From: Lachnospiraceae bacterium
Lineage (GTDB): Bacteria > Bacillota > Clostridia > Lachnospirales > Lachnospiraceae
DNA length: 64,000 nucleotides
Assembly (NCBI GenBank): GCA_023663945.1
Contig: JAMPGL010000010.1
Span: forward strand, 21,897-85,896
Direction: 5' to 3'
Below, in pieces: positions 5,542 to 42,396 of this stretch. The notes beneath the pieces were generated by a model. The model was given only the letters and a program-made list of their open reading frames with translations, did not search any database and was not told the DNA's origin. The number at the start of each line of letters is the position of its first letter. Position 1 is the first letter of the stretch. Made by a program: the position numbers and the translations under genes.

Positions 5542-7866
5542 ATGTTTCGTGATGATTTTGTCTGGGGCGTGGCAAGCAGCGCTTATCAGATCGAGGGAAG
5601 AGAAGAAGGCGACGGATGCGGAAAGGGCATCTGGGATACTTTTACGGAAGAAGGACGTATTTTAGATGGACATACATCTTATACGGCGTGCGATCATATG
5701 CATCGTTATAAGGAAGATTATGCGCTTATGCGGATGCTGGGGATTAAGGCGTACCGGTTTTCGGTAAGCTGGGCAAGGCTGATTCCAAACGGAACCGGAG
5801 AGGTGAACAAAAAGGCGGTAACCCTTTACCGCGATATGATTACAGAGATGAAAAGGAACGGGATAGAACCTTATCTGACGATGTATCATTGGGAGTTCCC
5901 CCAGGCGCTTCAGAACCGGGGAGGCTGGCTGAATGAGGAAGTGATTCAGTGGTTCGGTGAATATGCCAAAGCTGTGGCGGAGAACTTTTCGGATCTTTGT
6001 GAGAATTTTATCACCCTAAACGAGCCGGAATGCTTTGTGGGATTAGGGCATCTTTCCGGTGTTCATGCGCCGGGGCTTAAGCTGCCGCAGAAGGATGTGT
6101 TCCAGATTGCCCATAACGCCCTCCGCGCCCATGGTCAGGCGGTGATCAATTTGCGGAAATATGCGTGCCGTCCGATTAAGGTGGGTTATGCGCCTACCTG
6201 CGGAATGGCGTATCCGGCAAGTGAGCGGGAGGAGGATATTGAAGCGGCAAGGGAGGTTCTCTTTGGGTTTTATCAGCCTATGGAGAACTGGACGTGGAAT
6301 GTGGCATGGTTTAATGACCCGGTATTTTTAGGGAAATATCCGGAGGAGGGGCTTAAAAAGTTTGCAGAATATCTTCCTAAAATTACGAAGGAGGACATGG
6401 AATTAATTTCTCAGCCTCTTGACTTTATGGGACAGAATATTTATAACGGATATATGGTCAGAAGAGGCGGCGGCGGAGAGATTGAATTTGTTGACAGACC
6501 GGAGGGCTTTCCCAAGACGGCGGCAAACTGGCCGGTGACGCCGGAATGCTTTTACTGGGGCGTGAGGTTTTTGTATGAAAGATACAAGCTGCCCCTGTAT
6601 ATTACGGAAAACGGCATGTCCTGTCATGATGATGTGTCTCTGGACGGAAAGGTTCATGACCCCAACAGGCAGAATTTTCTTGACCTGTATCTTTCAGCCC
6701 TTCAAAAGGCGAACGATGACGGGGCGGATGTAAGGGGATATTTCCTCTGGACGTTTTTGGACAATTTTGAATGGGATAAGGGATATACGGAGCGGTTTGG
6801 AATCGTCTATGTGGATTTTGCCACTCAAAAGAGAATCGTCAAGGATTCGGCTTACTGGTATCAGAGGATTATTGAATCCAATGGAAGAGAGCTGACGATT
6901 AACGTGAAGGAAAGACCAATCTTATTTTTACAGCCCGTGTTTAAGCAGATGCTTTGGGGCGGAAATAAGCTGAATACGGAATTTGGCTATCCGATTCCCG
7001 GCGACGATACCGGAGAGTGCTGGGCAATCAGCGCGCACCCTAACGGGGACTGTGTGGTGAAAGAGGGAATTTATGCTGGAAAGAAGCTTTCGGAGCTTTG
7101 GAAGGAGCATGGAGAGCTTTTTGAAAATCTGGATTTGGATCGGTTTCCGCTTTTGATCAAGATTATTGATGCGAAGGATGATTTGAGCATTCAGGTTCAC
7201 CCGGACGACGCCTATGCAGGCGAACACGAGAACGGCTCCCTTGGGAAGACGGAGTGCTGGTATGTTCTGGACTGCCCGGAGGATGCGGCGCTGGTGGTAG
7301 GACACAATGCGTCCGACAGAGAAGAGCTGAAGGATATGGTGGAGCAGGGAAGATGGGGAGAACTGATTCGGGAGATTCCCGTGAAAAAGGGCGATTTCAT
7401 TCAGATTAATCCCGGCACGGTTCACGCTATCAAAGGAGGGCTTCTGATTTTGGAGACCCAGCAGAACAGCGATATTACCTACCGCGTCTATGATTATGAC
7501 AGACTGACGAACGGAAAGCCCCGCCAGCTTCATGTAAAGCAGAGCATTGACGTGATTACGGTTCCTGCGCCCTCTATAGGGGACAGCGTGCGCTTTGTGG
7601 GAGACCTGCCGGAGAACGTGATGAACGAGCTGATTTCCTGCGACTATTACACGGTATGGAAGCTGGATGTGACAAAACCTGTCAGGGTAGAGCAGAAGTA
7701 TCCTTTCTTAAATATGAGCGTGATAGAAGGGGAAGGTCTGGTGAACGGACAGATGATCAAAAAGGGTGACCATTTTATTCTCCCGGCAGGAATCGGAGAG
7801 GTTTCCCTGCAGGGGAATATGAAGTTAATTGCGTCCACGGTTCCAAATGAGGAGAAGGATGCATAG
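5542..7866 (+). CDS. GH1 glycosidase fused to class I mannose-6-phosphate isomerase
   Basis: A single 774-aa frame with two complete enzymes. Residues 1 to about 450 are a GH1 beta-glycosidase: acid/base Glu161 in TLNEPE, nucleophile Glu356 in ITENG, and the C-terminal signature WTFLDNFEW. Residues from about 457 to 774 are a type I phosphomannose isomerase (ManA): zinc ligands Gln551 and His553 in IQVHPDD, Glu571 in GKTECW and His628 in NPGTVHAI. The joining segment is only about ten residues. Each half has the normal length of its family, so this is a true fusion. The start chosen is ATG 5542, eight bases after TTGGAGG; the upstream TTG at 5527 is part of that ribosome site. ManA converts mannose-6-phosphate to fructose-6-phosphate; the GH1 half probably releases glucose or mannose from short mannan oligosaccharides. 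Confidence 0.92.
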   Translation: MFRDDFVWGVASSAYQIEGREEGDGCGKGIWDTFTEEGRILDGHTSYTACDHMHRYKEDYALMRMLGIKAYRFSVSWARLIPNGTGEVNKKAVTLYRDMITEMKRNGIEPYLTMYHWEFPQALQNRGGWLNEEVIQWFGEYAKAVAENFSDLCENFITLNEPECFVGLGHLSGVHAPGLKLPQKDVFQIAHNALRAHGQAVINLRKYACRPIKVGYAPTCGMAYPASEREEDIEAAREVLFGFYQPMENWTWNVAWFNDPVFLGKYPEEGLKKFAEYLPKITKEDMELISQPLDFMGQNIYNGYMVRRGGGGEIEFVDRPEGFPKTAANWPVTPECFYWGVRFLYERYKLPLYITENGMSCHDDVSLDGKVHDPNRQNFLDLYLSALQKANDDGADVRGYFLWTFLDNFEWDKGYTERFGIVYVDFATQKRIVKDSAYWYQRIIESNGRELTINVKERPILFLQPVFKQMLWGGNKLNTEFGYPIPGDDTGECWAISAHPNGDCVVKEGIYAGKKLSELWKEHGELFENLDLDRFPLLIKIIDAKDDLSIQVHPDDAYAGEHENGSLGKTECWYVLDCPEDAALVVGHNASDREELKDMVEQGRWGELIREIPVKKGDFIQINPGTVHAIKGGLLILETQQNSDITYRVYDYDRLTNGKPRQLHVKQSIDVITVPAPSIGDSVRFVGDLPENVMNELISCDYYTVWKLDVTKPVRVEQKYPFLNMSVIEGEGLVNGQMIKKGDHFILPAGIGEVSLQGNMKLIASTVPNEEKDA

Positions 7867-7925
7867 ACCGGAGAAATTTGAAAAGGAAATATTTTTAAGT
7901 ATCTAGGAAAAGGAAGTACACAGAG

Positions 7926-9110
7926 ATGATCAATGAGCAATATAAGAAAATGCTGGAAGGAAAATCCGTAATTCGTGAGCTGTCAGAATTTGCCACGGCA
8001 AGGGGAAAGGAAATCGGCTATGAAAACGTATTTGATTACAGCCTTGGCAACCCTTCCGTGCCGGTTCCGGAACAGTTTACGGAGACGATGATTAACCTGT
8101 TAAAGACCAAGAGCTCCATAGAGCTTCACGGCTACAGCCCAAGCCTTGGGATTGCTTCCGTTAAGGAGGCAATTGCAGAGTCTTTAAATAAAAGATTCGG
8201 CATGGATTACACGGGGAATCATATTTTTCCCACTACCGGAGCGGCGGGCGCCGTGGCGCATGCGGTGCGGTGCGTTACCTGCCCGGGGGATGAGGTGCTG
8301 ACCTTTGCCCCCTACTTTCCGGAGTATAATCTGTACATTAATATGTCCGGCGCAGTGCTTAAGGTGGTGCCTGCGGACACGGAAAACTTTCAGATTAATT
8401 TTGAGAAGCTGGAGGAGATGCTGAATGCCAAAACGGCGGCGCTTCTGCTCAACACGCCCAATAACCCTTCCGGCGCCGTGTACAGCGCACAGACCCTCAC
8501 AAAGCTTTCGGAGCTTCTTACAAGGAAGCAGAAGGAATATGGGCATGACATTTTTATTATCTCCGATGAGCCTTACCGGGAGATTGTGTTTGACGGGGTG
8601 GATGCTCCTTACGTGTCTAAGTTTTATGATAATACGTTATCCTGCTATTCTTACTCCAAATCCCTTTCCCTTCCGGGAGAGAGAATCGGATATGTGGCGG
8701 CGAATCCCCGCTGTACCGACGCGGAATTAATCAGCGCTATGTGCGGACAGATTTCAAGGGGAATCGGACATAACTGCCCGCCCTCCATCATCCAGCTTGC
8801 GGTAGCGGAGGTGCTGGATCTGACTTCGGATATGAGCGTTTACGAGCGGAATATGAATCTTTTATACAAAGAGCTTACAGAGCTGGGATTTGACTGTGTA
8901 AAGCCCGGAGGAACCTTTTATATTTTCCCGAAAGCGCTGGAAGAAGATGCATCCGCCTTTTGCAAAAAGGCGCTTAAATACGATCTGGTGCTGGTTCCCT
9001 CCGACAGCTTCGGCGTGTCCGGCTATTTTCGTATGGCGTACTGCATTGACACAGAAAAGGTGGAGCGTTCCTTAGAACCGCTTCGGAGATTTGTGAAAGA
9101 AAATTACTAA
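7926..9110 (+). CDS. pyridoxal-phosphate aminotransferase, class I/II
   Basis: A 394-aa fold-type I aminotransferase. Visible markers are NTPNNPSGAVYS, the PLP-phosphate region IISDEPYREIVFDG, the Schiff-base lysine in SYSKSLSLPGERIGY, and the late arginine in GYFRMAYC that binds the substrate carboxylate. It resembles the aspartate/aromatic aminotransferase group, but the amino-acid substrate cannot be read from the sequence. It lies 59 bp after the GH1-ManA gene with no obvious terminator, so it may be read from the mannan block, although no metabolic link is evident. Confidence 0.88.
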   Translation: MINEQYKKMLEGKSVIRELSEFATARGKEIGYENVFDYSLGNPSVPVPEQFTETMINLLKTKSSIELHGYSPSLGIASVKEAIAESLNKRFGMDYTGNHIFPTTGAAGAVAHAVRCVTCPGDEVLTFAPYFPEYNLYINMSGAVLKVVPADTENFQINFEKLEEMLNAKTAALLLNTPNNPSGAVYSAQTLTKLSELLTRKQKEYGHDIFIISDEPYREIVFDGVDAPYVSKFYDNTLSCYSYSKSLSLPGERIGYVAANPRCTDAELISAMCGQISRGIGHNCPPSIIQLAVAEVLDLTSDMSVYERNMNLLYKELTELGFDCVKPGGTFYIFPKALEEDASAFCKKALKYDLVLVPSDSFGVSGYFRMAYCIDTEKVERSLEPLRRFVKENY

Positions 9111-35642: not shown

Positions 35643-36116
35643 TTAAACCCTTCTCAAATATAAAGTATAGTCGCTTGGATCAAACTCGTCCCCATATCCT
35701 TTATCAATGGCTTCCGTAAATCCGAATTTAAAATAAATATGCTTTGCCCGTTCGTTATTATCTTCAACGCCGATAGTAAATTCGGTATACCCCTGTTCTT
35801 CCAAATCAGACAAGGCAAACCCAATTAACCTTTGTCCAAGCCCTAATCCTTGATAGCTGTTATCTAATCGAAAAGCTTGGAGATAAACTCTTTGACCGGG
35901 GATTGCCTCAGAAGCTAAATCATGACTGATATAATTAATTGACAATTCCCCTATAAAGGAATCATTTAGTTCAATTACATAAACATCAATTTCTTTCTTA
36001 TCAAATTCCTGTAGTCTCATGTTCCGGTATTTCAGCCACATTTGCTCATCATCCGGGAAAAGGTCATGCAATTTATCAAATTCATCTTTCGCAATTTTTC
36101 TGATAATATAATTCAT
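35643..36116 (-). CDS. GNAT family N-acetyltransferase
   Basis: A 157-aa acetyltransferase. The acetyl-CoA binding motif A is visible in RLDNSYQGLGLGQRLIGFALSDLEEQGYTEFTIGVEDNNERAKHIYFKFGFTEA (Q-x-x-G-x-G/A pattern, then the N-x-x-A motif). The acceptor is unknown. Its ATG overlaps the stop of the upstream C39-like gene by four bases (ATGA), so the two proteins are made together and may act on the same target. It ends 147 bp from spoVT in convergent orientation. The local base composition is more AT-rich than the housekeeping genes. Confidence 0.88.
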   Translation of the reverse strand: MNYIIRKIAKDEFDKLHDLFPDDEQMWLKYRNMRLQEFDKKEIDVYVIELNDSFIGELSINYISHDLASEAIPGQRVYLQAFRLDNSYQGLGLGQRLIGFALSDLEEQGYTEFTIGVEDNNERAKHIYFKFGFTEAIDKGYGDEFDPSDYTLYLRRV

Positions 36117-36736
36117 TTTGTTTCCTGTCTAATTTGGGCGGTATTGTACATGATTAATGCTTCACGGCAAGAATAGTCCCCCATTTCATAGTAGTCCATG
36201 GTAGTGCGGTTCATCCGCTCGATGCTGACGGAACGGTTGGCTTTTTTGGGAGTGTCAAGGAGAAATTCAATCTCGTCGGTGGAGTATTCCTCGTCCAGCT
36301 CCGGATCATCGATTTCCTCGTAAAAGGGGTCAAACAACAGAACCCTGTCATCTTTGATTCCGGTTAAAAGGACGTAATGCGGGACTTCAAGGAAAACGTG
36401 CACCACAACCACGCCGCCCTTTTTAAGCGCGTGAGTAATCCGGCTTTCAGGAGTAATGACAACCTCTTTCCCGGTAAAAAATTCACAGGCAAGGGGAAAT
36501 TTCTTTACCTCTCCGAAATGATTCATCCAGCTTGCCATATAATTCATGGCGGCGGCGGAGGTGCCGTGTTTGCACAGCTCGCCCGCTTCATTATAGCTGT
36601 CCATGCAGTAGAGCATGATAAATTTAACCAGATCGGGGGCAATCTCTTCCCGCTCAAACAGATAGCGGATGCCGTTTAACAGGCTGACAGGACCACAGTC
36701 ATATTCAGATGTTTGATAATTTAATAGGTTCTTCAT
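36113..36736 (-). CDS. C39-peptidase-like protein coupled to a GNAT acetyltransferase
   Basis: A 207-aa protein with the hallmarks of a papain-fold C39 peptidase: a Gln in NYQTSEYDCGPVSLLNG followed by the candidate nucleophile Cys, a His in VPHYVLLTGI and an Asp in LLFDPFYEE, giving a Q-C-H-D set. There is no signal peptide or transporter domain, so it is a stand-alone cytoplasmic version and not a bacteriocin exporter. Its substrate is unknown. ATG 36736 is taken as start because TTG 36748 sits too close to AAGGAA, but either is possible. Together with the overlapping GNAT gene it resembles the C39/GNAT (sometimes with RimK) pairs of unknown role. Confidence 0.75.
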   Translation of the reverse strand: MKNLLNYQTSEYDCGPVSLLNGIRYLFEREEIAPDLVKFIMLYCMDSYNEAGELCKHGTSAAAMNYMASWMNHFGEVKKFPLACEFFTGKEVVITPESRITHALKKGGVVVVHVFLEVPHYVLLTGIKDDRVLLFDPFYEEIDDPELDEEYSTDEIEFLLDTPKKANRSVSIERMNRTTMDYYEMGDYSCREALIMYNTAQIRQETK

Positions 36737-36855
36737 GGTATTTTGCAATATTCCTTAGTGTTTGATAGGTTTTGTTATAATTTATGTTGTGTCAAAAATA
36801 ATGGTGCAAAGTGATTGTAATATACCGCGGTTTTCTCTGTTTGTCAATATATAAG

Positions 36856-36884
36856 TTGACATTGAAGAACGTATGTTCTATAAT
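36856..36884 (+). promoter_or_regulatory. consensus sigma-A promoter for the restriction-modification gene
   Basis: TTGACA at 36856-36861, 17-bp spacer, TATAAT at 36879-36884; both hexamers are perfect. Transcription would start near 36891, giving a leader of about 174 nt. Confidence 0.85.
36867..36878. promoter_or_regulatory. LexA/SOS-type box inside the promoter spacer
   Basis: GAACGTATGTTC matches the Gram-positive LexA (DinR) consensus GAAC-RNRY-GTTC at every position and fills the spacer immediately upstream of the -10 box, a classic repression position. Confidence 0.72.
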
Positions 36885-36920
36885 AATATATGAAATGTAA
36901 AGCAGTGCACGCTATTGTAC

Positions 36921-36950
36921 AATTAATTCTATAATGTTATAGAATTAATT
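36921..36950. repeat. perfect 14-bp inverted repeat in the restriction gene leader
   Basis: AATTAATTCTATAA (36921-36934), TG, then its exact complement (36937-36950). It is about 30 bases after the predicted transcription start and 115 before the start codon. It could be an operator or an mRNA hairpin; the AT-only arms make a stable terminator unlikely. The rest of 36737-37064 is AT-rich and holds no gene beyond a possible 13-codon frame at 37036. Confidence 0.6.
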
Positions 36951-37064
36951 ATCTAATTATAGTATCATTATTTATATGTGAGAAAGTATAATAGTGAGTA
37001 TTTTTATAATTGCAGTTATCAAAGGCGGAAAGACCATGGAGAACAAAATATATAGGAGGCAATT

Positions 37065-39638
37065 ATGGAAAAAATAATATATACATTAGAAGCAGATGTA
37101 GATGATTTTGTAAAGAGGAAGTTTGATAGTTTAAAACTCAGGAAAGGAATAGACTATAATGAAAAATCGGTTATGTCAAGTTATATGAAGGAAGCGTTAA
37201 AAGGTGCGGCTAAAACAAGAAATAAAAAAAGTTTTGGACAGCCAGATTTCCATATAGAGAAATATCAAATTCCGGTTGTAATTGAAAATAAACTTTATCA
37301 TAAATTTCACATTGCAGTTGCCAAAGAAGAAATTAAGGCGGATGATAAATCAGTTAGCAATTATGCAGTTAATGGCGCTGTTTATTATGCTAGAAGCATG
37401 ATTGAAAGCAAGCGATATGATGAAGTAATTGCAATAGGTATTTCGGGAGAAAGCGATGATAGCATTAAAATATCTACTTATTATGTTTTTTCATCTAATA
37501 TTAAACCTAAATTTATGAAAGATTATAATTCACTTGATTTTTTAGAAAGTGAAGAAAGTTTTAATGCATTTTATGATAATGCAGTAGTTACAGAGGATGA
37601 GAAACATAAAATTTTAATTAAAACACGAGAAGAACTTATTAAACATGCAAAAGTTCTCAATAAGATGATGAATAACCAAAATATAGGCGTTGAGCAAAGA
37701 GTAGTTTATGTATCTGGGATGCTGCTGTCAATGCAGGATGTATTAGATGACGATTTTTCAGTACTTGACGGCGGACTTGTGCCAGATGATTTGCAAGGTA
37801 TAAAAACGGAGCAAAAGAGAGATGGAATAATAATAATTAACCATTTAAGAGATTACCTTGATAGAAAAAATCTTCCTGAGGATAAGAAAAATATTATGCT
37901 CGATTCTTTTAAAATGTCGATATCTTTGGATGCGGCAAGAGATGTCCCGATAAATCTCGATAAAGCGGTAGATGGTATGATAAATGGTCAGGCATCAATT
38001 ACGAAACAGATATTTACATATTTATACTTTAATGTGTATACTGCAATTAATTTGACAGGTGGAGCATTAGATATTATGGCAGAGATGTATTCTACCTTTT
38101 TGAAGTATGCATTAAGTGATGGAGCATCATTAGGTAAAGTTTTAACACCTCCATATATTACAACATTGATGGCTAAATTATTAGATGTAAATAAAAAATC
38201 CAAAGTTATGGATATTGCAACTGGATCGGCGGCATTTCTTGTTGCAGCAATGGAACAGATGATAAGTGATGTAAATAAAACATATGGAAAAAACACCAGT
38301 GCTGCACGGAAAGCGATAACTTCAATAAAAGAAGAACAATTATTGGGGATAGAAATTGATGCTAAAATGTACACACTTGCCGCTTCAAATATGATTTTAC
38401 GCGGAGATGGAAGTACTCAAATAAAGAAGATGGATACATTTACAACACCAGAATCTGTGTTTGACGATTTTAATGCAGACGTACTTTTATTAAATCCTCC
38501 TTTTTCATATGCAGGAAATGGACTACCTTTTTTTAAATTTGGTCTTGATCATATGAAAAAAGGCGGGTATGGAGCTGTTATTATTCAAGATTCAGTAGGC
38601 GCTGGAAAGACTATTGAAATCACGACAGCAATTTTGGAGAAACACAGAATGATTGCAAGTATTAAAATGCCCATGGATTTGTTTGAACCGAATGCAACAG
38701 TGCAAACAAGTATATATATTTTCAAAGCAGGTACACCGCATAATTTTGATTATGATATTGTAAAGTTTATTGATTTTAGAAATGATGGATATAAACGTAC
38801 GGAAAGATGTATAAAAGAGATTGATTATCCAACAGAAAGATATCAAGATATATATTTAGTTTACAAATTAGGATTTAATGCGGTAAAAAATTCAGAATTT
38901 CATTCAGAATTATGGGATTTAAAGAAAGTCTATTGTGAAGATACTATAAGTAAAAAGGGTGATGACTGGAATTTTGAGAAACATATTGAAATTAGCAATA
39001 AGCCGGAAGAAAAGTCTTATTTGAGTTCAATTGATCATCATCTATCATGGGATATTGAGAACTGGATATTGACACAAATTAATGCGCCCTTTTCAGAGGA
39101 AGCAATAGAATATTTAATTCAAAAAGAAATGAAAGAATTTGAGGTTTCAAAAGTATTCAATATTACTAAAACATCATGTAGTTACAACAAGGAAGACTTA
39201 AAAAAACCAACAGACGACATAGATGTATATGACTATATAACAAGAACAGTAACGAATAGAGGAATTTGTGATATTACAGGATTCATTGACTCTAATGGAT
39301 TAAATGAGGAAGGTACTTATAGTTTAGGATTGCTTCAGATGGCATTTTTCTATCGTGAACGTGCATGGTATGGCGGTCAATTTATGAGAGTGGTATCTTG
39401 TAAATATAAGATAGACAAATACGCGGGGTTATATTTAGAAACAATTTTAAATGGGTTGTCTGAGAAGCTTTTGTCGGGATTAGTTAGAGATGTTGATAAA
39501 ACTTTCTTGAAAATGAAAGTATTGCTTCCGGTAAATAATGATGGAGAAATTGATTTTGAATGGATGTCTCATTTTGCAAGGGAGAGGGAAAAAAATATAA
39601 TTCGTAGATTTTTTAGTGAATATCATAAGGAGGATTAA
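37065..39638 (+). CDS. single-chain restriction-modification enzyme (type IIG-like: nuclease, N6-adenine methylase and specificity regions)
   Basis: An 857-aa protein. Residues 1-180 carry a PD-(D/E)xK nuclease motif, Pro60-Asp61 in GQPDFHIEKY and Glu74-x-Lys76 in VVIENKL. Residues about 200-330 are helical. The methylase core begins with VLTPPYITTLM (motif X), then motif I DIATGSAAFL (383-392) and catalytic motif IV NPPF (477-480), the pattern of HsdM-like N6-adenine methylases. The region after about 640 resembles a half specificity subunit of type I systems (last blocks LGLLQMAFFYRERAWYGGQFM and DVDKTFLKMKVLLPV). All functions on one chain fits type IIG. The gene is far richer in A and T than its surroundings, which points to recent transfer. 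Ribosome site AGGAGG; promoter with an SOS-type box. Confidence 0.85.
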   Translation: MEKIIYTLEADVDDFVKRKFDSLKLRKGIDYNEKSVMSSYMKEALKGAAKTRNKKSFGQPDFHIEKYQIPVVIENKLYHKFHIAVAKEEIKADDKSVSNYAVNGAVYYARSMIESKRYDEVIAIGISGESDDSIKISTYYVFSSNIKPKFMKDYNSLDFLESEESFNAFYDNAVVTEDEKHKILIKTREELIKHAKVLNKMMNNQNIGVEQRVVYVSGMLLSMQDVLDDDFSVLDGGLVPDDLQGIKTEQKRDGIIIINHLRDYLDRKNLPEDKKNIMLDSFKMSISLDAARDVPINLDKAVDGMINGQASITKQIFTYLYFNVYTAINLTGGALDIMAEMYSTFLKYALSDGASLGKVLTPPYITTLMAKLLDVNKKSKVMDIATGSAAFLVAAMEQMISDVNKTYGKNTSAARKAITSIKEEQLLGIEIDAKMYTLAASNMILRGDGSTQIKKMDTFTTPESVFDDFNADVLLLNPPFSYAGNGLPFFKFGLDHMKKGGYGAVIIQDSVGAGKTIEITTAILEKHRMIASIKMPMDLFEPNATVQTSIYIFKAGTPHNFDYDIVKFIDFRNDGYKRTERCIKEIDYPTERYQDIYLVYKLGFNAVKNSEFHSELWDLKKVYCEDTISKKGDDWNFEKHIEISNKPEEKSYLSSIDHHLSWDIENWILTQINAPFSEEAIEYLIQKEMKEFEVSKVFNITKTSCSYNKEDLKKPTDDIDVYDYITRTVTNRGICDITGFIDSNGLNEEGTYSLGLLQMAFFYRERAWYGGQFMRVVSCKYKIDKYAGLYLETILNGLSEKLLSGLVRDVDKTFLKMKVLLPVNNDGEIDFEWMSHFAREREKNIIRRFFSEYHKED

Positions 39639-39646
39639 TTAGGAAA

Positions 39647-39850
39647 ATGGAGAAATTACATATAGAATTTGATTCACCATTAAATGAGCAGGACACAGAG
39701 CAACAAACATATGGGTGCAGGGCTAATAATCCGGATATATGTTCTAATAATTCGATACCTAATATTTGTGCGTTTACATCTGCGGATAATATATGTAGAA
39801 GACCATCTAGAGCATGGAAGAAACAATATGAAAAATTAAAAGCAAAATAA
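39647..39850 (+). CDS. small four-cysteine protein downstream of the restriction enzyme
   Basis: A 67-aa protein beginning eight bases after the restriction gene stop. The first 20 residues are acidic; the middle has four evenly spaced cysteines, C-x7-C-x8-C-x8-C (GCRANNPDIC, SNNSIPNIC, AFTSADNIC), and the end is basic (RRPSRAWKKQYEKLKAK). The ordered cysteines could hold a zinc ion or form disulfides; the basic tail could bind DNA. It shares the AT-rich composition and terminator of the restriction gene, so it is probably a partner. I do not recognise a named family. A ribosome-site candidate AGGAAA precedes the ATG. Confidence 0.65.
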   Translation: MEKLHIEFDSPLNEQDTEQQTYGCRANNPDICSNNSIPNICAFTSADNICRRPSRAWKKQYEKLKAK

Positions 39851-39877
39851 TTTAACTACTTATAGGGAACGCCTATT

Positions 39878-39920
39878 ATCAGCGGAAATTTATTTGTATT
39901 AACAGATTTCCGCTGATTTT
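39878..39920 (+). terminator. terminator of the restriction-modification operon
   Basis: Twelve-base arms ATCAGCGGAAAT (39878-39889) and ATTTCCGCTGAT (39906-39917) followed by T-rich sequence. The promoter of the next gene overlaps its 3' arm. Confidence 0.82.
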
Positions 39921-39973: not shown

Positions 39974-41128
39974 ATGGAATATCAAAATGCTACAAAATGT
40001 ATTCATTTAGAGGAAAATGAGAATATTGAAAAGGCATTTGGAGCGGTCAGTTTTCCGATTTATCAGACCGCAACATTTGCGCATAAAGGAGTGGGAGAAA
40101 GCACCGGATACGACTATTCAAGGATGCAGAATCCGACCAGAGAACAGCTTGAAAAGACGGTAGCGGCGTTAGAGAAAGGGATTGATGCCATAGGATTTTC
40201 AAGCGGAATGGCGGCGGTCACGGCAGTGATGGAATTGTTTGTACCCGGAGATCATGTGATCATAGATGCAGATTTGTATGGGGGAAGCGTCAGGCTGTTT
40301 CAAAATATTTCGGCAAAAAACGGCATTGTGTTTTCCAGAGTCGATTTAAGCAGGGAAGAGGTAAGCGGTTATATTACCGAGCGGACAAAAGCGGTATTTT
40401 TGGAGACTCCTACCAATCCCATGATGCATGTGATTGATTTAAAAAAGCTCAGTGAAATTACCAGACAAAAGGAAATTCTGCTGATTGTGGACAACACCTT
40501 TTTGTCGCCTTATTTTCAAAATCCGCTGGACATGGGGGCTGATATTGTAATTCACAGCGGGACAAAATATCTGAATGGTCACAATGACGCCATTGCCGGT
40601 TTTGCGGTAGTGAAGGATGAGAAATTGAAGGAAAAGCTCCGTTACATTTATAAGACCGTAGGCTCCTGCTTATCGCCCTTTGACAGCTGGCTGATTCTCC
40701 GTGGGATTAAAACCTTGGCTGTGCGCATGGAAAAGGCGCAGGAAAATGCATTTTTGATTGCGGGCTGGTTAAAAGAGCAGAGGCAGGTCAAGAAGGTTTT
40801 TTATCCCGGTTTGCCGGAGCATCCCGGATATGATATTATGAAAAAGCAAAGCAGAGGATATGGCGCGATGATCAGCTTTGAGGTAGAAGACCGGGAGCTT
40901 GCAAGGCGCATTTTAAACAAAGTGCATCTTATTCAGTTTGCAGAAAGTCTCGGAGGAGTGGAAACATTGATTACATATCCCATTATGCAGACCCATGCAG
41001 ATGTGCCGAAGGAAGAGCTTGCAGAAAATGGAATTACTGACGCGCTGCTGCGGATTTCCGTGGGGATTGAGGACGGCAGGGACTTATTAGCCGACTTAGA
41101 GCAGGCTTTTCGTTTTGGCGGGCAATGA
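39974..41128 (+). CDS. Cys/Met metabolism PLP-dependent enzyme (cystathionine gamma-lyase/synthase-like)
   Basis: A 384-aa trans-sulfuration family enzyme. Visible are YSRMQNPTREQLEK, the SSGMAAVTAV phosphate loop, ETPTNPMMHVIDL, DNTFLSPYFQNPLDMGADIVIHSGTKYLNGHND with the Schiff-base lysine, and the C-terminal FAESLGGVETLITYP...RISVGIED. The family includes cystathionine gamma-synthase, beta- and gamma-lyases and O-acylhomoserine sulfhydrylases; the sequence alone does not separate them. It is followed by a PatB-type lyase and cysK, so it most likely breaks down or makes cystathionine/homocysteine as part of a sulfur amino-acid block. Confidence 0.9.
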   Translation: MEYQNATKCIHLEENENIEKAFGAVSFPIYQTATFAHKGVGESTGYDYSRMQNPTREQLEKTVAALEKGIDAIGFSSGMAAVTAVMELFVPGDHVIIDADLYGGSVRLFQNISAKNGIVFSRVDLSREEVSGYITERTKAVFLETPTNPMMHVIDLKKLSEITRQKEILLIVDNTFLSPYFQNPLDMGADIVIHSGTKYLNGHNDAIAGFAVVKDEKLKEKLRYIYKTVGSCLSPFDSWLILRGIKTLAVRMEKAQENAFLIAGWLKEQRQVKKVFYPGLPEHPGYDIMKKQSRGYGAMISFEVEDRELARRILNKVHLIQFAESLGGVETLITYPIMQTHADVPKEELAENGITDALLRISVGIEDGRDLLADLEQAFRFGGQ

Positions 41129-41205: not shown

Positions 41206-42396
41206 ATGAAAATGGCGGAGAGAAATCTTGATTTTGACAGGGTGATTGACCGGAAAAACACAAATTCTTTAAAGTATGACTTTGCGGAGCAAAGAGGGAG
41301 ACGTAAGGATATTCTTCCTTTATGGGTGGCGGATATGGACTTTCCGGTTTCCTCTTATATTCAGGATGCCCTGCTTGGGCAGATTCAGCATGGGATTTAC
41401 GGCTACAGTGAGCCTGGGGAGGAATACTTTGAGGCGGTGAGCGGATGGATGCAGAGGCGTCATGGCTGGGAGGTAAAACCGGAGTGGATGATTAAGACTC
41501 CCGGCGTAGTTTATGCGCTTGCGATGGCAGTGCGCGCTTTTACCAACGTAGGGGAGGGCGTTCTGATCCAACAGCCGGTATATTATCCATTCAGCGGGGT
41601 GATTCTGGATAATAAAAGAAGAGTGGTCAACAACGCGCTTATCCTTAACGATGATGGAAAATATGAGATGAATTATAAGGACTTTGAGGAAAAGGTTGTA
41701 AAGGAAAATGTGCGGTTGTTTTTCCTGTGTAATCCTCATAACCCTGTGGGAAGGGTGTGGAGCCGTCAGGAGCTGGAAACCATTGGAGACATTTGTCTTA
41801 AGCATCATGTAACAGTGGTCAGTGATGAGATTCATTCCGACTTTATTTGGCAGGGGAAGCATCAGGTATTTGCAGATATTAAAGAAGAATACCGGGATAT
41901 AACGGTTACCTGTACGGCACCCAGCAAGACCTTTAACATTGCAGGGCTTCAGGCATCTAATATCTTTATTTCCAATGCCAGACTGCGCCATTTATTTAAA
42001 AAGCAGATAGACGCATCCGGCTACAGCCAGCTTAATTCGGCGGGCATTGCAGCCTGTGAAGCAGCTTACCAGCATGGGGAGGAATGGTATCAGGCGGTTT
42101 CAAAGTACATAAGAAATAATATTCATTTTGTTAAGGAGTACTTGAAAGAAAAACTTCCGGAAGTCAAGATGACAGCCCCGGAGGGGACTTATCTGATATG
42201 GCTTGACTTCCGCGGACTAGGGCTTTCCGAAAATGAGCTTGAGCTGTTGATTGCTCAAAAGGCGGGGCTGTGGCTGGATGCAGGGACTATGTTTGGAGAC
42301 GATGGAAGGGGATTTCAGAGAGTCAATGCGGCATGTCCCAGAAGCATATTGGAAACGGCGCTTTGCCAGCTTGCGAAAGCGGTACATGATGAATAG
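41206..42396 (+). CDS. MalY/PatB family PLP-dependent C-S lyase (cystathionine beta-lyase type)
   Basis: A 396-aa fold-type I enzyme. The N-terminal block FDRVIDRKNTNSLKYDF...LPLWVADMDFPVSSYIQDAL is diagnostic of MalY/PatB; CNPHNPVGRVWS, VVSDEIHSDFIW, the Schiff-base lysine in TAPSKTFNIAGLQASNIFI and NLNA-type FQRVNAACPR arginine follow. Members split cystathionine, cysteine or related thioethers to pyruvate, ammonia and a thiol. It lies 77 bp after the PLP-lyase gene. Starts ATG 41206 and 41212 are both compatible with the AGAGGGAAG site. Its stop codon touches the tandem-repeat array. Confidence 0.9.
   Translation: MKMAERNLDFDRVIDRKNTNSLKYDFAEQRGRRKDILPLWVADMDFPVSSYIQDALLGQIQHGIYGYSEPGEEYFEAVSGWMQRRHGWEVKPEWMIKTPGVVYALAMAVRAFTNVGEGVLIQQPVYYPFSGVILDNKRRVVNNALILNDDGKYEMNYKDFEEKVVKENVRLFFLCNPHNPVGRVWSRQELETIGDICLKHHVTVVSDEIHSDFIWQGKHQVFADIKEEYRDITVTCTAPSKTFNIAGLQASNIFISNARLRHLFKKQIDASGYSQLNSAGIAACEAAYQHGEEWYQAVSKYIRNNIHFVKEYLKEKLPEVKMTAPEGTYLIWLDFRGLGLSENELELLIAQKAGLWLDAGTMFGDDGRGFQRVNAACPRSILETALCQLAKAVHDE

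Follow-up and report, generated by a model that had tools for sequence, protein, structure and literature searches.

A horizontally acquired restriction–modification gene predicted to belong to the SOS regulon of its Lachnospiraceae host

Restriction–modification (R-M) genes are usually described as constitutive or as being under their own controller proteins. A locus in a 3.74-Mb draft genome of a Lachnospiraceae bacterium raises the question of whether such a gene can be governed by the SOS response of the cell that carries it. We analysed a 64,000-nucleotide stretch of this genome (the window, on contig C9), in which a consensus promoter holding a predicted LexA operator stands before a gene for a single-chain Type IIG-like enzyme. 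We consider it probable, at roughly 0.78, that this acquired Type IIG/IIB-like gene is a member of the host SOS regulon, repressed by LexA and induced by DNA damage. The features of the locus, in window coordinates, are as follows.

36819–36847, minus strand: promoter-like site TTGACA-17-TATATT of the divergent C39-like gene, clear of the operator
36851–39865, plus strand: acquired cassette comprising SOS promoter, leader, R-M gene and small ORF (alignment to relatives; borders approximate)
36856–36861, plus strand: −35 hexamer TTGACA (direct reading, promoter scan)
36867–36878, plus strand: predicted LexA operator (SOS box) GAACGTATGTTC, which ends the promoter spacer and abuts the −10 hexamer
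36879–36884, plus strand: −10 hexamer TATAAT (direct reading, promoter scan)
36921–36950, no strand: perfect 14-bp inverted repeat with a 2-nt centre, AATTAATTCTATAA-TG-TTATAGAATTAATT, in the untranslated leader
37065–39638, plus strand: single-chain Type IIG-like R-M gene, 857 aa (PADLOC, Pfam)
37242–37292, plus strand: predicted nuclease active site P60-D61 ... E74-x-K76 (alignment)
38070–38510, plus strand: N6-adenine methyltransferase core, residues 336–482, with NPPF at 477–480 (Pfam N6_Mtase, alignment)
39123–39602, plus strand: single target-recognition domain, residues 687–846 (Pfam Methylase_S)
39647–39850, plus strand: 67-aa ORF within the cassette (ORF list)

The operator and the LexA motif of the host

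The preliminary description held that an SOS box fitting GAAC-N4-GTTC fills the spacer of a TTGACA-17-TATAAT promoter, and direct reading of positions 36856–36884 bears this out. The two hexamers match the consensus at 12 of 12 positions and enclose the 17-bp spacer TTGAAGAACGTATGTTC. From the operator it is 186 bp to the 857-aa gene; transcription would start near 36891, giving a leader of ~175 nt. LexA very likely represses this promoter, judging from its sequence. The operator was placed for the rightward gene because the divergent gene (36113–36748), which resembles C39 peptidases below the Pfam cut-off, has a promoter-like site of its own, and that stretch aligns with relatives lacking the cassette. 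Service to the divergent gene was ruled out, as the promoter-like site of that gene (36847–36819) is resident and four cassette-less relatives have no operator.

The canonical SOS genes of the host carry the same motif. The recA gene (contig C21) has both GAACAAATGTTC and TTGACA-AAACC-GAACATTTGTTT-TATAGT, the latter in the register of the window operator; uvrB has GAACAAAAGTTC ~120 bp upstream of the first matched codon, and a Y-family polymerase gene (Pfam IMS) has the identical 12-mer GAACGTATGTTC within TTGAAA-17-TATAAT. Each of these three genes has a perfect GAACN4GTTC operator, and lexA itself (contig C30) has several near-perfect sites. The comparison with lexA, recA and uvrB thus gives the host motif as GAAC-N4-GTTC, and the objection that the host might use another LexA motif failed, being ruled out by the recA, uvrB, polymerase and lexA operators together. 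A recA operator with at most one mismatch was present in all eight further genomes compared, namely six of the same family and the hosts of the two closest relatives of the R-M gene. The same motif is given for the in-silico LexA regulon of Clostridioides difficile (PMC4234289).

The layout of the window promoter is that of recA in this genome and in the family: a −35 hexamer, 5 bp, the LexA core and then at once the −10 hexamer (TTGACAAAACCGAACATTTGTTTTATAGT here). The two differ in that host recA has a second operator downstream and a −10 hexamer further from consensus, whereas the R-M gene has a single operator and a consensus −10. On a 16-bp weight matrix built from 23 recA operators of other genomes (median score 20.0), the window operator scores 19.0, and no other place in the window exceeds 9.4. 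Within the host genome the polymerase operator scores 18.1, the two recA operators 18.3 and 17.0, uvrB 13.7 and lexA also 13.7, the last being the better of two sites scored; a place inside an ABC-transporter-like gene reaches 17.2. When the window was shuffled 40 times, a place of at least 13 turned up in 14 of the shuffles and one of at least 19 in a single shuffle, so the matrix score alone is weak evidence. Taken with the register, these values support a window operator of recA quality.

How far the site exceeds chance depends on how much of it is considered. The 12-mer core GAACN4GTTC is not remarkable by itself, occurring twice in the window against 0.71 expected and 49 times genome-wide against 56 for the reversed pattern; four of those 49 places, the window operator included, lie outside all ORFs of at least 70 aa. 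The full layout, searched as TTGACN6GAACN4GTTYTATNNT, still matches the window only once at a tolerance of two mismatches (0.03 expected) and has just two matches in the host genome, at recA and at the 857-aa R-M gene. Across 397 genomes of the same family it matched 78 times in 71 genomes, and the reversed pattern did not match at all. Since the reversed pattern does not mimic promoters, we also examined the genes led by these matches, at 58 of the 76 places outside the host genome. At 23 of the 58 the gene was recA. Pfam was run on 20 first genes among the 35 remaining places; a RadA-like ATPase, RuvA, an AlkZ-like glycosylase and a radical-SAM protein are among them, and nine had no Pfam match. 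None of the 58 examined places in other genomes led a Type IIG-like enzyme. The layout is a good mark of an SOS promoter, because it has no reversed matches and the places examined often lead recA.

Other genes under recA-type LexA promoters were met in these searches. At seven of the 35 non-recA places, in other genomes of the family (L138, L154, L164, L165, L177, L178 and L181), the promoter leads what reads as a sigma-70-like protein of ~190 aa with a longer protein either encoded next or joined to it in one chain; the Pfam sigma match was below cut-off in L138, L165 and L181. Scans that covered all of these but the second gene of L138 matched the Type IV restriction-like domain GmrSD_N (DUF262) in L154, L164, L165 and L181, with the last two above cut-off, and gave no such match in L177 or L178. 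A protein with the N-terminal core-binding domain of MrpR, a phage-repressor relative, is led by such a promoter in L142 (Pfam), and proteins in L151 and L152 resemble it in sequence. A protein of ~100 aa, alike by reading, recurs in L139, L160, L170 and L186; the L170 copy, which alone was scanned, has no Pfam match. In the host genome, a perfect GAACATATGTTC (L028 2767–2778, G000:C38:25266; matrix score 12.5) lies between divergent ORFs, ahead of a stretch that looks by eye like a long, near-perfect inverted repeat, and possibly marks a further SOS gene.

The restriction–modification gene and its cassette

The R-M ORF is intact. PADLOC assigns residues 5–665 of the protein to REase_MTase_IIG (E 6.4e-186), and Pfam, PADLOC and alignment together support the earlier claim that restriction and methylation parts lie on one chain, which also carries the specificity part. 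P60, D61, E74 and K76 are invariant in 11 of 11 aligned sequences and, by their PD-(D/E)xK pattern, would be catalytic; N477, P478 and F480 of the methylase motif are likewise invariant in the 11-sequence alignment. These alignments exclude one relative with stops in the given frame (L025) and two partial ones (L024 and L027). The protein would thus be expected to cut and to methylate DNA. Because the chain has one recognition domain, a layout of the HaeIV kind is suggested, not that of AloI or CjeI. The 67-aa ORF starts 8 bp past the R-M gene, contains Cys, gave no Pfam or NCBIfam match and, by eye, has no counterpart downstream of the gene of the closest relative.

The gene sits in a piece of ~3 kb that is missing from relatives. 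At E 1e-60 or better it was found in one of 37 genomes of the genus, with a weak relative (E 1.7e-33) in another (G264). The right-hand neighbour gene is present in ten other genomes of the genus, six of which were compared (L206–L211). In four of the six (L207–L210) the slot is empty: the C39-like gene and the homologue of gene 39974–41128 are adjacent, about 210–260 bp apart, and their spacers hold no operator with up to one mismatch. L206 has AraC-like and MATE-like genes, named from sequence reading, in the slot; the compared stretch of L211 has no C39-like gene. Of five relatives, three lose homology on the left flank at 36847–36850 and the other two at 36825; on the right it resumes at about 39830–39880. 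Homology on the left thus ends before the −35 hexamer at 36856, which places the SOS promoter within the acquired piece. Capture of the gene by a resident SOS promoter is ruled out by the same borders, with left homology ending at 36850 or earlier. By these alignments, promoter and gene were acquired together, horizontally. A search of IMG/VR with six peptide patterns gave no close relative of the R-M gene.

The wider neighbourhood may be a recurrent place of insertion for SOS-controlled genes. In L165 (G333:C113, 1–2600) the operon of sigma-like and GmrSD_N genes lies directly upstream of a PatB/MalY-type-like ORF that, by sequence reading, resembles window gene 41206–42396.

Relatives of the gene and the leader repeat

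The closest relative of the R-M gene (L017, 84% identical, in a MAG titled Robinsoniella) also has a perfect operator, GAACACGTGTTC, 164 bp before its start codon and just 3′ of a TATAAT. The L017 leader aligns with that of the window gene no better than shuffled sequence does (score 21; shuffles median 20, maximum 32), but does align with the leader of the next relative, L018 (score 44; shuffle maximum 27). L018 (82% identical, in a MAG titled Blautia) has no site with up to two mismatches in 420 bp, and L019–L027 have none with up to one. As the two operators stand in unalignable leaders, either two gains are suggested or one old gain has been blurred beyond recognition; the alignments suggest that the window gene and L017 gained theirs independently. 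Further afield, GAACGTATGTTT lies within TTGACA-17-TATAAT in a BcgI-like operon that is only distantly related (L079, 30% identical), and perfect cores upstream of L075 and G210 score low (7.2 and 6.7).

We scored 50 distinct upstream regions, drawn from 56 loci after six duplicates were dropped. Here and in the comparison with other methyltransferase genes below, the longest ORF was taken to begin at its first ATG to set the start of the region, a choice that can be wrong for split or cut genes. Three of the 50 scored at least 13 (shuffles: mean 0.23, maximum 2, 60 rounds) and three at least 10, a weaker excess (mean 0.9, maximum 3), the shuffle test using the G210 first-ORF region in place of the original one. 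Perfect GAACN4GTTC cores occur in three of the 50 regions, or four with G210, and control half-sites with two G/C in a mean of 0.24 regions (maximum 2). A score of at least 13 was reached by three of 18 relatives taken as same-family, against none of 29 other N6-methyltransferase genes (30 of 44 matches taken, 29 scored); the 18 exclude L021 (in a MAG titled Acetatifactor), where a search tolerating one mismatch gives no site. With the window gene excluded the comparison is two of 17 against none of 29 (~0.13), which we do not count as significant. LexA control as a general trait of the enzyme family is ruled out by these counts (3 of 50 regions, 3 of 18 relatives). On predicted sites, control is sporadic in these relatives, and was perhaps gained more than once.

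Beside the L018 relative, an 865-aa ORF (5924–8521) reads as a cytosine plus adenine methylase and genes nearby read as phage lysis genes; the neighbourhood is perhaps a mobile defence cluster.

The leader of the window gene contains a further element. The preliminary description saw in its 14-bp inverted repeat a possible second layer of control; the repeat exists, with perfect arms, but the regulatory role was not supported. None of 200 shuffles folds as well as the leader RNA (z = −3.1), which together with the perfect arms would suit either an operator for some other regulator or a hairpin in the RNA that affects translation. Against such a role, the repeat has no other copy in the genome at up to three mismatches, no terminator was found in the leader, the single Rfam match is far below its gathering score, and the unalignable L017 leader offers no comparison. 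The terminator scan and Rfam rule out a terminator or a known RNA, and we regard a second control through the repeat as unlikely.

Predicted regulation, alternatives and known systems

RecA-stimulated cleavage of LexA after damage lifts repression in the SOS pathway. At the window promoter, LexA bound between the −35 and −10 hexamers would block RNA polymerase; DNA damage would activate RecA, LexA would cleave itself and the promoter would fire. Restriction and methylation would rise together because both reside on one chain. Leak from the strong promoter would keep the chromosome of undamaged cells methylated, a leak sufficient for the genome being expected of a consensus promoter. SOS would then supply more enzyme at times when the cell probably faces invading DNA or problems in replication, and the added enzyme would also keep over-replicated DNA marked. 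The sequence shows the operator, its host-specific motif and register, the cassette and the domain layout; that LexA binds, that damage induces the gene, that undamaged cells are methylated, that the enzyme is active and that the cell benefits is what we infer from it. The safety of induction would depend on basal methylation and kinetics, since related enzymes behave differently: BcgI always cuts unmethylated sites, whereas TstI methylates and cuts them at similar rates (PMC4027205).

Other readings of the operator differ in what induction would achieve. Possibly, though we lean against it, SOS serves the methylase, shielding over-replicated or recombining DNA from the enzyme during repair. 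A LexA regulon that includes methylase genes, the ydiO-ydiP pair of Bacillus subtilis, lends this some support. It would be the mirror image of the alleviation by which, according to a review, Type I restriction is lowered after DNA damage (PMC12707154); here, however, the nuclease would rise with the methylase. The kinetics of BcgI and TstI (PMC4027205), the presence of both activities on one chain and a recA-grade operator that could repress hard would each suit a self-inflicted loop or suicide switch. Low enzyme would leave methylation incomplete, and induction would bring self-cutting, more damage and more enzyme, ending in cell death with a BcgI-like enzyme or, with a TstI-like one, in repair of the undermethylation. 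We hold such a loop to be unlikely: a 12-of-12 consensus promoter is probably leaky, and the ORF is intact with invariant catalytic residues. Very unlikely, in our judgement, is a chance or neutral operator in a strong promoter, with LexA control that has no selected role. The chance frequency of the 12-mer alone, the one window shuffle in 40 that reached the operator's matrix score and the absence of the operator from L018 and most relatives would fit it. The full layout speaks against it, with no reversed match in 397 genomes and 0.03 expected in the window at two mismatches, as does the second operator in the unalignable leader of the closest relative; moreover, LexA would probably bind a site of this quality even if it had arisen by chance.

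Should the preferred reading, membership in the host SOS regulon, be true, Type IIG/IIB-like restriction would join the functions turned up by DNA damage, and SOS caused by phage or antibiotics would be linked to DNA uptake. The locus would also offer a simple test of whether induction of a single-chain enzyme spares its host.

In Type II R-M systems controlled by C proteins, a repressor delays or limits restriction. The window case differs in that the host's own LexA would act as controller: the R-M gene's neighbours are the C39-like gene, the 67-aa ORF and a cystathionine gamma-synthase-type gene (the last by sequence reading), with no gene for a controller (a small HTH protein) among neighbouring ORFs of at least 60 aa. 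It is conceivable, if improbable, that LexA replaces the usual controller outright, the gene being repressed by resident LexA immediately on entry and its own cuts at unmethylated host sites raising the dose. The damage sensing and repair of the host would thereby be joined with a mobile defence gene in a single closed feedback loop; whether that loop ended in remethylation or in death would be set by what the enzyme does first at unmethylated sites, methylate or cut.

Among characterized enzymes, HaeIV, AloI, CjeI and TstI likewise carry nuclease, gamma-class adenine methylase and specificity on one polypeptide, and the available parts of the sources describe no LexA control of them (PMC3874165, PMC4027205). 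AloI and CjeI differ in having two recognition domains in ~1250 aa (PMC3874165), whereas the window enzyme has one in 857 aa. BcgI-like two-subunit systems are 27–50% identical to it over the nuclease–methylase part and differ in having a separate S subunit. Relatives of this BcgI-like kind occur in 14 plasmid and 11 phage records, including Staphylococcus phage phi-42 (X94423), whose BcgI-like genes go by the name Sau42I. The operator scan covered eight of these 25 records, phi-42 with only 49 bp upstream; of the seven with 400 bp upstream, six lack the core at up to one mismatch and one (L131) has it with one mismatch. In the E. coli symE gene, too, a LexA site overlaps the promoter of a potentially harmful gene, although symE, a Type I toxin under antisense control, is not an R-M enzyme (PMC3874152, a review). 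Among the literature matches listed, which covered few subscription papers, there was none on a Type IIG/IIB system controlled by LexA. The nearest precedent for the window gene would be the ydiO-ydiP methylase genes, which in Bacillus subtilis belong to the LexA regulon.
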